Made by a program: the position numbers and the translations under genes. The notes beneath the pieces are model-generated. The model was not told the origin of the DNA. It did not search any database and was given only the letters and a program-made list of their open reading frames with translations. A DNA stretch of 64,000 bases from contig CAINVY010000010.1 of assembly GCA_903854335.1 (NCBI GenBank), forward strand, positions 1 through 64,000. The letters run 5' to 3'. Positions 8,100-43,725 of the stretch are shown in pieces. How positions within the stretch are numbered: position 1 is the stretch's first letter; every line of letters starts with the position of its first letter. The stretch comes from an uncultured Candidatus Peregrinibacteria bacterium (GTDB lineage: Bacteria; Patescibacteriota; Gracilibacteria; Peribacterales; Peribacteraceae).

Positions 8100-9164
8100 T
8101 CACACGACACTCTTGCTGAGGGCACGATCCAGTTGATCCGCAGTGTCGCGGATGAGGCGTTGCGTGTCGTCCCATCCGAGACAGGGGTCAGTGGCAGAGA
8201 GTCCATCCATGTCCATGGTCGGCGAAATCTTTTGATTGCCTCGCTTGAGGAAGCTCTCGACCATAAACCCCTTCACGGCATCGTATCCTTCGTATCCCCG
8301 CGATTTCGCGCTGAGAACACTCTCCACGACGTGCTGCTGCAGCAGCGGATCTTTGCCGTGACCATTGCGGCAGTTATCGTGACTCGCATCGACGATAACG
8401 GCGGGATTGCGAATCTCACGCTCCGGCTGACGCAGAAGACGCGCCGCGAGAGCGATCGATGCGGGATCGTAATTGCTCTTGTCCTTCGCGCCTCGGAGAA
8501 TAACGTGCGCCCAGGGATTACCGTCGGTCTCCACCTGATGACGTCTCCACGCAAAGGTGTGCGGATGCTGCGCGCACTCCACGCCGTTCACGGCGATTTC
8601 GAGGTTCCCGTCCTCGGGATTCTTGATGCCAACGGGACAATCGCCCTCCGCCGAGAACATGCCCGATGCGACGAATCTGTGCTCCTGATCAGAAGAACTG
8701 CGCGCACCAATGGCGAGGTAACTGAGTGCATCGACGAAGTACCCTTCATTCCCCGTGAAAAGCATTTCGTCGGCAACCGGAAGCATCTTACCGACCTTGT
8801 GCATCATCTCGCGACACTGCCAGATCCCTCTCTCGATATCCGCCGGCTGACGCGGATCGGGCTGCGTAAGAGGGCCGGGCCATCCGAGCGTCGTGCGCGG
8901 CTTCTGGGTGTAGCACCGCAGCACAAGGAATAACCTCTCGCGCACCTCTTCCTGCAATTGCGCCAACTTTTCCGCGTAACGTTCGACGGCGGGAATGGGC
9001 CAGGCTGAACAGGGACCGACGACCATGAGGAGCCGCGAATCTCTTCCGGAGAGAATCTCCGCACCGGTGTCGCGATGCTCCTGAATGCGATGAGCCGGTG
9101 TCATCGGAAATGTTCCGACGACTTCTTCTGCACTGGGAAGATCTTTGGTAATGCGGAATGCCAT
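8100..9164 (-). CDS. 3-deoxy-7-phosphoheptulonate synthase (class I DAHP synthase, AroF/G/H type)
   Basis: VVGPCSAWPIPAVERYAEKLAQL, LFLVLRCYTQKPRTTLGWPG, DASHDNCRNGHGKDP. Confidence 0.92.
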   Translation of the reverse strand: MAFRITKDLPSAEEVVGTFPMTPAHRIQEHRDTGAEILSGRDSRLLMVVGPCSAWPIPAVERYAEKLAQLQEEVRERLFLVLRCYTQKPRTTLGWPGPLTQPDPRQPADIERGIWQCREMMHKVGKMLPVADEMLFTGNEGYFVDALSYLAIGARSSSDQEHRFVASGMFSAEGDCPVGIKNPEDGNLEIAVNGVECAQHPHTFAWRRHQVETDGNPWAHVILRGAKDKSNYDPASIALAARLLRQPEREIRNPAVIVDASHDNCRNGHGKDPLLQQHVVESVLSAKSRGYEGYDAVKGFMVESFLKRGNQKISPTMDMDGLSATDPCLGWDDTQRLIRDTADQLDRALSKSVV

Positions 9165-9184
9165 GGGGTGAGGGGGAAAGAATA

Positions 9185-9215
9185 ACAAACAAAAACGCCT
9201 TCCGCTGGGGGAAGG
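9185..9215 (-). terminator. Candidate attenuator terminator upstream of DAHP synthase
   Basis: Minus strand CCTTCC-CCCAGC-GGAAGG followed by CGTTTTTGTTTG. Confidence 0.7.
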
Positions 9216-9242
9216 TCGTGTGCAAAAGTTCTAAATTCTCAC

Positions 9243-9311
9243 TTACGCACGGCCCTTCCCCGCCATAAAGGCGAAGAACCAGAAGCCGAACGCGTAGGAA
9301 CGAGAGACCAT
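9243..9311 (-). CDS. Aromatic-rich leader peptide, 22 aa (MVSRSYAFGFWFFAFMAGKGRA)
   Basis: ATG(9311)...TAA(9243) between proB and DAHP synthase; 7 of 22 residues are F/W/Y, and it lies directly upstream of the terminator hairpin. Confidence 0.7.
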   Translation of the reverse strand: MVSRSYAFGFWFFAFMAGKGRA

Positions 9312-9355: not shown

Positions 9356-10141
9356 TCAACGAAGAGAGAAGTGCGTCCCCGATATGCCTTCGCTTCCCAT
9401 TCTTCGCAGCACTTGATCGTTCTTCCCATTGGCGATGTATGCCTCGCCCCCCATTTTCGCATGTTCCGCAGCGACGTTGCATTTGCTTTTCATGCCGCCT
9501 GTTCCATTCCCCGACGTTCCGCTATGCAAGTACTGCTCGAAATTATCCGTCACCGGATTGACTTTCGGAATGACGCTTTCCGGGTCTTCGACAGTACGAA
9601 GCAAACCATTGACGCTCGTCAGGAGGATGAGTATTCGCGCCTGCATCATCCGAGCGATGGAAGCTGCGAGCCGATCGTTGTCCCCAATAGTGAGCTCAAC
9701 TGTTGCGACCGTGTCGTTCTCGTTAATGACGGGAAGTACATCATGAAGAAGCATTTCTTCCAACGTGTTGCTGACGTTTTTGTACGGATACGGAGGCTTG
9801 GTGATGTTGAAATCGGCAGGCGTGAGGAGCACCTGTCCGCACACGACACCTTCGTTAAGAAAAAAGTGACGGTACGCATTCATCAGAGGCCCCTGACCAA
9901 CCGATGCGTACATTTGCCGCTCAGAAACGGTTTCATCCGCGCGTCTGCTCTGCCGCATTTCCGCCCTGCCCGCCGCCATGGCTCCCGACGTGACCACGAG
10001 AATCCTGGAAACGGACTGGCGAATCCTCATGATGCCATCAACGATTTGTCTCATCCTCTGCCTGTCGAGATGCCCCTCCGACGTCGTGATGACGTCGGTG
10101 CCAATTTTGATCACGCCGGTATCGTCGCGCAGTTGATCCAT
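9356..10141 (-). CDS. proB: Glutamate 5-kinase-like amino acid kinase (no PUA domain)
   Basis: VIKIGTDVITTSEGHLD, ILVVTSGAMAAGRAEM, NENDTVAT, GTGGMKSKCNVAAEHAKMGG. Only ~261 aa. Confidence 0.75.
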   Translation of the reverse strand: MDQLRDDTGVIKIGTDVITTSEGHLDRQRMRQIVDGIMRIRQSVSRILVVTSGAMAAGRAEMRQSRRADETVSERQMYASVGQGPLMNAYRHFFLNEGVVCGQVLLTPADFNITKPPYPYKNVSNTLEEMLLHDVLPVINENDTVATVELTIGDNDRLAASIARMMQARILILLTSVNGLLRTVEDPESVIPKVNPVTDNFEQYLHSGTSGNGTGGMKSKCNVAAEHAKMGGEAYIANGKNDQVLRRMGSEGISGTHFSLR

Positions 10142-10222
10142 AAGAGCTTGAAACAGGTGACAAGGTATAAGGCTTATTGACGCGGAAAACAACATTTCCT
10201 AACATTTAACTGTCACCACATC

Positions 10223-18348: not shown

Positions 18349-19371
18349 TCACTTCCTGCGAAGCGGGGGAAGGTCGCAGACAACCTGTACCGGCTTCACC
18401 GTGTGCTCCGGAGCAGCTCCGGCGATCCACTGCGTGATGGACTGGAAGCAGTCGAGGAACATGTTGCGCATGCTGTCGTCGGCGTAGAACGCGATGTGCG
18501 GCGTCGTCACAACGTTCGGGTGCTCGATGAGCGCGCGATTCTCCTGGAAGTTCTGCTCATGCTCGAGCACATCGAGCAGCGCGTGGGCCACCTTCCCGCT
18601 CTCGAGTGCCACGAGAAGCGCGGAAGAATCGATGAGCGAACCGCGAGCGGTATTGACGAGAATGACGCCCTCCTTCATGCGCGCAAATGCGGCAGTATCG
18701 ATAATGTGTTCCGTTTCCGCGGTCGCCGGCGTGTGGAGCGTGATGATGTCGCTCTCGGAAAGTAATGTCTCGAGCGGGACGTACTGCACGCCAAGGAGAT
18801 CCTCGAGCTCGATCGTGCGGCAGTGATCCGCGGCGAGAATCTTCATCGAGAATCCGTGCGCGATGGCCGCGACTTTGCGTCCGATCTTCCCCGTCCCGAC
18901 AATGCCAAGCGTCTTGCCCCGAAGCGACATGCCCCGCAGTCCGTGATAATCGAATGTGCCGCCCTGCACCCGTTTGTTTCCTTCCAGGACACGCCGAAGC
19001 GTGCTCAATAGCAACGCGAAGACGTGCTCCGCGATCACATGGGAACCATAGTCGGGCACGTTGCACGCCGTGATCCCCTTCTCTTTGCACGCATCGAGAT
19101 CGAGGTGATCGTACCCCACCGATCGCGTACAGAGCAGTCGCAGCTTCGGCAGTTTCTCGATGAGTGAGCGAGAGAAAGGAACCGTGATGAATGTCGAGAT
19201 CACCTCCGCATCACTGCACTGTTCGATGATTTCCTGTTCCTTCAACGCGCCGAAGACCGCCGCGGACGGGAAGTGATTGAGGACGAGAGGACGATCCTCC
19301 ACGTCAACATCAAGGAAAACTATGCGCGGAGATGGAGAAGAAGTTGGCATAAGAGAAGGAGGATGCATCAT
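18349..19371 (-). CDS. D-isomer-specific 2-hydroxyacid dehydrogenase
   Basis: GKTLGIVGTGKIGRKVAAIAHGF, GVILVNTARGSLID, NVVTTPHIAFYADDS. Confidence 0.9.
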   Translation of the reverse strand: MMHPPSLMPTSSPSPRIVFLDVDVEDRPLVLNHFPSAAVFGALKEQEIIEQCSDAEVISTFITVPFSRSLIEKLPKLRLLCTRSVGYDHLDLDACKEKGITACNVPDYGSHVIAEHVFALLLSTLRRVLEGNKRVQGGTFDYHGLRGMSLRGKTLGIVGTGKIGRKVAAIAHGFSMKILAADHCRTIELEDLLGVQYVPLETLLSESDIITLHTPATAETEHIIDTAAFARMKEGVILVNTARGSLIDSSALLVALESGKVAHALLDVLEHEQNFQENRALIEHPNVVTTPHIAFYADDSMRNMFLDCFQSITQWIAGAAPEHTVKPVQVVCDLPPLRRK

Positions 19372-43650: not shown

Positions 43651-43725
43651 TGGCAGCCCCACGGGGAATCGAACCCCGATTACAGGAATGAAAATCCTGT
43701 GTCCTAACCGTTAGACGATGGGGCC
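43651..43725 (-). tRNA. tRNA-Glu (anticodon TTC), CCA encoded
   Basis: Minus strand GGCCCCATCGTCTAACGGTTAGGACACAGGATTTTCATTCCTGTAATCGGGGTTCGATTCCCCGTGGGGCTGCCA, full cloverleaf. Confidence 0.95.

Follow-up and report, generated by a model that had tools for sequence, protein, structure and literature searches.

In the trpL and pheL leaders of E. coli, the cognate codons lie in the first of four RNA strands, which pair to form a protector (1:2), an antiterminator (2:3), or a terminator (3:4). CPR bacteria are mostly uncultured and streamlined, and are often considered poor in amino-acid synthesis or regulation. According to two articles through which we cite Neshat et al. 2014 (PMC11802643, PMC7356990), the C. 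glutamicum leader peptide AroR, which is aromatic (Phe-Tyr-Phe), is encoded upstream of the DAHP synthase gene aroF, and ribosome stalling raises transcription under Phe limitation. A survey of Actinobacteria described trp, cys, and branched-chain attenuators, and found no conserved structures upstream of Phe, Tyr, and Thr operons (PMC1262725).

The window, i.e., the whole stretch of 64,000 nucleotides that was analyzed, carries on its minus strand what we consider, with a probability of roughly 93%, to be a ribosome-mediated transcription attenuator similar in kind to trpL and pheL, which would sense aromatic aminoacyl-tRNA and control DAHP synthase. Its parts follow one another in the order promoter (9350–9323), leader ORF (9311–9243), terminator (9215–9198) with U-tract, and DAHP synthase (from 9164), which places the intrinsic terminator after the leader ORF and ahead of the structural gene. 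The regulated gene (8100–9164, minus strand) encodes a class I DAHP synthase of the aroFGH family (TIGR00034, 255 bits against a cut-off of 173 bits), whose two closest named matches are from uncultured Candidatus Peregrinibacteria; no Shine-Dalgarno-like sequence was found upstream of its ATG. The upstream neighbor, proB (glutamate 5-kinase, 9356–10195, minus strand; TIGR01027, 216 bits, above the cut-off), lies outside the switch and is mentioned as context only.

The leader ORF comprises 22 codons (MVSRSYAFGFWFFAFMAGKGRA; five F, one W, and one Y) and ends with UAA at 9245–9243; its sensor codons, read directly as Y-A-F-G-F-W-F-F-A-F, are codons 6–15 (9296–9267). Strand 1 (CGGC plus UUCUUCGCC, 9288–9270), which is located within the sensor codons, is predicted by folding to pair with strand 2 (GGCGGGGAAGGGCCGT, 9264–9249), which is itself in the reading frame (Ala-Gly-Lys-Gly-Arg codons). 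As the original prediction had pointed out, the core of strand 2 contributed by the Gly-Lys-Gly codons (GGGGAAGG, 9254–9261) is perfectly (100%) complementary to strand 3 (CCTTCCCC, 9208–9215), which serves both as the 5' arm of the terminator and as the antiterminator partner of strand 2. Strand 4 (GGAAGG, 9203–9198) completes with strand 3 the hairpin CCTTCC-CCCAGC-GGAAGG, followed by CGTTTTTGTTTGTT with the U-tract at 9195–9184. The aromatic 22-residue leader and the hairpin with its U-tract were likewise found as originally described, except that the gap between stop codon and terminator stem is 27 nt rather than 28 nt. The promoter and the 1:2 hairpin, in which the aromatic codons pair with strand 2, had both escaped the original prediction; its pheL/trpL logic, which is supported by the conservation, covariation, and codon-pathway match described below, was in this respect incomplete, since the protector hairpin makes it a full 1:2:3:4 switch.

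The promoter is of the sigma-70 type (TTGACA-N16-TACAAT, 9350–9323) and matches the consensus at 11 of 12 positions. At 100 homologous sites, the mean match to the -35 and -10 boxes is 9.4/12, as compared with 6.4 at a control offset, and the spacer is mostly 16 nt; consensus match and conservation together suggest a promoter from which transcription would pass through the leader before reaching the gene. The leader ATG lies 11 nt past the -10 box, and a transcription start at about 9316 would leave the leader mRNA nearly leaderless. As the start codon is usually found 6–12 nt past the -10 box at the homologous sites, leader mRNAs of this kind probably start within a few nucleotides of their start codons. 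Such a likely leaderless leader resembles the leaderless attenuator peptides of Actinobacteria.

Among 1,608 start-to-stop windows of 15–40 codons in the 64 kb, only two distinct ORFs, the leader being one of them, are as aromatic as this (at least 7 of 22 codons), and the 1.17 Mb genome, which was searched with covariance models and patterns, contains a single instance of the exact pattern of strand 2, N20–50, strand 3, loop, and strand 4. A model scan of the 64-kb window at full sensitivity detected no second site, and at the Rfam gathering score the whole window yielded only a tRNA (43654–43725), and no T-box, riboswitch, or leader family. Modeling suggests that the leader RNA can adopt two alternative folds: with the first 20 nt removed, strand 1 (CGGC, UUCUUCGCC) is predicted to pair with strand 2 (GGCGGGGAA, GCCG) while the terminator forms, and in a longer leader the best predicted fold has strands 2 and 3 paired in an extended helix. 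The single sequence folds mildly better than its shuffles (z = -1.87), which is weak evidence by itself; in our sequence comparisons, it is conservation that settles the reality of the element.

In an alignment of 53 sites to a covariance model (R1), 86.5% of the cells of the 2:3 structure are paired and all 15 of its pairs show two-sided changes, values reached by none of 500 shuffles; sliding the partners lowers pairing to 37–67%. Since this alignment was itself fitted to 2:3, we also compared the duplex energies of cognate and swapped strands, which include stems 3:4 and 1:2 that are absent from the model. Cognate strands were favored for 2:3 (z = -10.6), 3:4 (z = -5.9), and 1:2 (z = -3.3), and remained so in a less redundant subset (z = -9.6, -4.4, and -2.9, respectively). 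The comparison thus supports stems 2:3 and 3:4 strongly, as the original prediction required of the relatives, and the 1:2 protector hairpin over the sensor codons, which is also seen in the predicted fold, moderately; complementarity, covariation, and strand swaps agree on an antiterminator that excludes the terminator. Leader-peptide control of translation is known elsewhere, and a stalled ribosome might act on translation initiation of DAHP synthase or on mRNA stability instead of on termination. However, a U-tract follows the 3' arm, as in an intrinsic terminator, both here and at most homologous sites, and the hairpin does not include the start of DAHP synthase, so that we regard control at these levels as quite improbable.

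The genome containing the window belongs to a family sampled by 74 genomes. The element is found in cis at all nine class I DAHP synthases of this family that have visible upstream DNA; relatives thus possess both the peptide and the stems, on the absence of which the original prediction would have foundered. At eight of the genes it is directly upstream, with one small gene between in G050 and G051, while the ninth (G019) follows, at 28 nt, a prephenate dehydratase gene that bears the element. A contig end truncates a tenth match (G062), which is outside this count. The same DAHP synthase fragment as on the G062 contig is present in JAIPIN010000013.1 (26,607 bp), the title of which, a Kiritimatiellales MAG, looks wrong. 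The relatives' leader peptides vary in sequence and keep their aromatic character (FFGAYWYPF, YFYGFFFTPY, FGFFAFPF, NYGAYTFSF, FFNGYWSFAF), which is specific to the frame: over 51 sites, aromatic residues number 6.3 per 12 codons in frame versus 0.45 and 1.5 in the two alternative frames. The interchange of F, Y, and W among these relatives makes 'any aromatic' the probable signal.

The same cassette was also detected in front of other genes. Model R1, which was built on eight leaders, identified it (E <= 1e-3) in 34 genomes of the family and in none of 279 others in the class, and a broader covariance model, R2, in 51 of the 74 family genomes versus one of the 279 outside. Aromatic leaders are not confined to class I DAHP synthase: they also precede the DAHP synthase of the B. 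subtilis type (G005, G018, G020, G065), prephenate dehydratase (G014, G018, G019, G048, G049, G054, G058, G070), and prephenate dehydrogenase; G002 carries the element twice, ahead of DAHP synthase and again ahead of a prephenate dehydrogenase-like gene. Leu leaders (e.g., MQQKGLLLGLLLLLLTEGGRLRA) are found before 11 of 13 LeuA genes and none of 12 low-scoring paralogues; four of them came out of the model searches when the downstream gene had yet to be recognized, after which the complete set of LeuA genes was inspected. Ser/Cys leaders (e.g., MNSAYVLSCSPVSSCCSLAGG) precede 10 of the 12 members of a SerA subfamily (nine recognized by a composition filter and one, MNGAYVLHCSPVSSCFW... in G072, by eye), and Pro leaders precede ProB in G005, G061, and G020, the G020 gene having been assigned by similarity. 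In each case, as for DAHP synthase, the amino acid that the leader would sense is a product to which the downstream gene contributes. Read in frame, each class is pure, and the other frames give mixtures: per 12 in-frame codons, Leu leaders contain 0.1 aromatic residues and aromatic leaders 0.3 Leu. A strict scan for a short ORF plus terminator, of reduced sensitivity, returned as its only off-class hits one Pro-rich ORF in the set of 13 LeuA genes, two ORFs in a set of 26 PGDH paralogues (one rich in Pro, the other in Ser), and one Leu-rich ORF that overlaps an aromatic leader in the wrong frame. The window itself encodes, at 18397–19248 on the minus strand, a phosphoglycerate-dehydrogenase-like protein of a widespread type of roughly 342 aa; in relatives, this type lacks the Ser leader seen with the SerA type of roughly 455 aa.

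The hydrophobicity of F- and L-rich leader peptides, and the precedent of peTrpL of Sinorhizobium meliloti, a leader peptide with functions in trans (PMC7298713), could suggest that the peptide is a functional small protein, acting in trans or in the membrane, and that the pairing is secondary. A membrane-peptide function, however, does not predict leaders whose residue class changes according to the pathway behind them, with Ser/Cys and Pro among the classes, and the strands covary; we therefore give this explanation very little credence. Equally little is left for a plain terminator of the upstream proB with an accidental aromatic ORF and accidental complementarity: proB is on the same strand, and a terminator behind it would be ordinary, but a near-consensus promoter separates it from the leader, the stems covary, the codon class tracks the gene downstream, and ORF, strand 2, and terminator are kept in relatives having other genes upstream, a conservation that already contradicts it. 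The notion of a pyrimidine-rich strand rather than a sensor, raised by UUC, CUC, and CCC codons that all pair with the purine strand 2, was rejected because the classes stay pure and UAC, UAU, and UGG are used freely, and a chance ORF is ruled out by the frame test and conservation.

From the parts of the attenuator, their conservation and covariation, and the match between codons and pathway, we infer stalling, readthrough, and a response to starvation along the following lines. RNA polymerase would start a few nucleotides before the leader AUG. With ample charged Phe-, Tyr-, and Trp-tRNA, the ribosome would reach the UAA and cover strand 2, so that 3:4 would form and transcription would stop short of the aro gene. 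Under a shortage of aromatics, the ribosome would stall on the F-G-F-W-F-F codons and occupy strand 1, leaving strand 2 free for strand 3; no terminator would form, and DAHP synthase would be transcribed. On a leader free of ribosomes, 1:2 and 3:4 would form together and transcription would end. Counting from the AUG as nucleotide 1, the strand 2 core occupies nucleotides 51–58, the stop codon 67–69, and strand 3 begins at 97, and by textbook footprints a ribosome at codons 8–13 should leave strand 2 free, while one at the stop codon should cover it.

This reading is weakened by the many homologous sites in relatives at which the next gene is a small orphan instead of a known biosynthetic one. 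In the genome containing the window there are two sites, the DAHP synthase element and a Leu-type site on another contig (G000:C13:104374–104483, plus strand; L046:787–884), in which the Leu-rich leader MTSSRTLLQSLALLLLLTEGKRLAA is followed by an orphan ORF of 113 aa; no leuA match was found in this genome. A conserved protein family of about 105 aa lies directly behind aromatic attenuators (L009, L018, L020, L026, L027, L029, L030, L010) and, in G050 and G051, between the attenuator and DAHP synthase; considered as a chorismate mutase, it gave no Pfam match and no credible PDB match. A second small family, of about 100 aa, is found behind the upstream copy of tandem attenuators, which occur in twos or threes, roughly 450–1,300 bp apart and each with its own gene behind (L008, L010, L018, L020, L047, L050, L051, L052, L053, L049), some mixing amino acids (aromatic, then Pro, in G005, G040, G052, and G054). 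Some Leu leaders (leuA, L137, L139, L141, L146) have an in-frame insert of about eight codons in the middle of the Leu run (PALSVVEG, PALSRVEG, ALSLIEG), which may be a repeat element inserted there. Ile-run leaders (SIRSTIIMAEGELRA; TIAIAIIAIPARAG) at L092 (the second site of G017) and L096 (G025:C20:1127–1235) hint at an Ile class, and the leader MRLWTLVYR... (L060, L096) precedes an RhtC/LysE-type amino-acid exporter in G023, with a closely similar gene in G025.

Tentatively, and at slightly less than even odds, we propose that one ancestral cassette has spread within this one CPR family and had its codons swapped, to give a leader-peptide regulon that responds to starvation for aromatic amino acids, for Leu, for Ser/Cys, for Pro, and possibly for Ile; where a genome lacks a pathway, the cassette would switch on small orphan proteins under starvation, which might serve to scavenge from a host or neighbor. 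As the codon run names the sensed amino acid, the leaders offer clues to what the unknown genes behind them do. The sequence comparisons indicate, furthermore, that conserved, pathway-matched attenuators would allow at least one CPR family to tune its remaining synthesis to the supply of charged tRNA with only RNA and ribosome.

The original prediction knew of no such attenuator in this type of bacterium, and we likewise found nothing relevant on attenuation in CPR, Patescibacteria, or Peregrinibacteria in the open-licence literature, to which our search was limited, an absence that speaks only weakly for novelty. The mechanism is a classical one, and attenuation of DAHP synthase by a stalling ribosome is already known from AroR of C. 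glutamicum, as outlined in PMC11802643. What is new is the CPR setting, the placement of strand 2 inside the reading frame, and the reuse of one cassette for several amino acids, of which the Ser/Cys and Pro versions are apparently new within the literature searched. Compared by logic alone, and as far as the accounts cited above describe AroR, both systems place an aromatic-codon leader before a DAHP synthase gene, but they belong to different phyla, the CPR leader adds Trp to Phe and Tyr, and the CPR cassette also serves other amino acids. As in the Actinobacteria attenuators (PMC1262725), leader peptides serve several amino-acid pathways outside the Proteobacteria, whereas the CPR family has one alignable cassette for several amino-acid classes. 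With E. coli trpL and pheL the CPR element has the four-strand logic in common; it differs from them in having strand 2 in the reading frame, before the stop codon, in its almost leaderless leader mRNA, and in its target, DAHP synthase.
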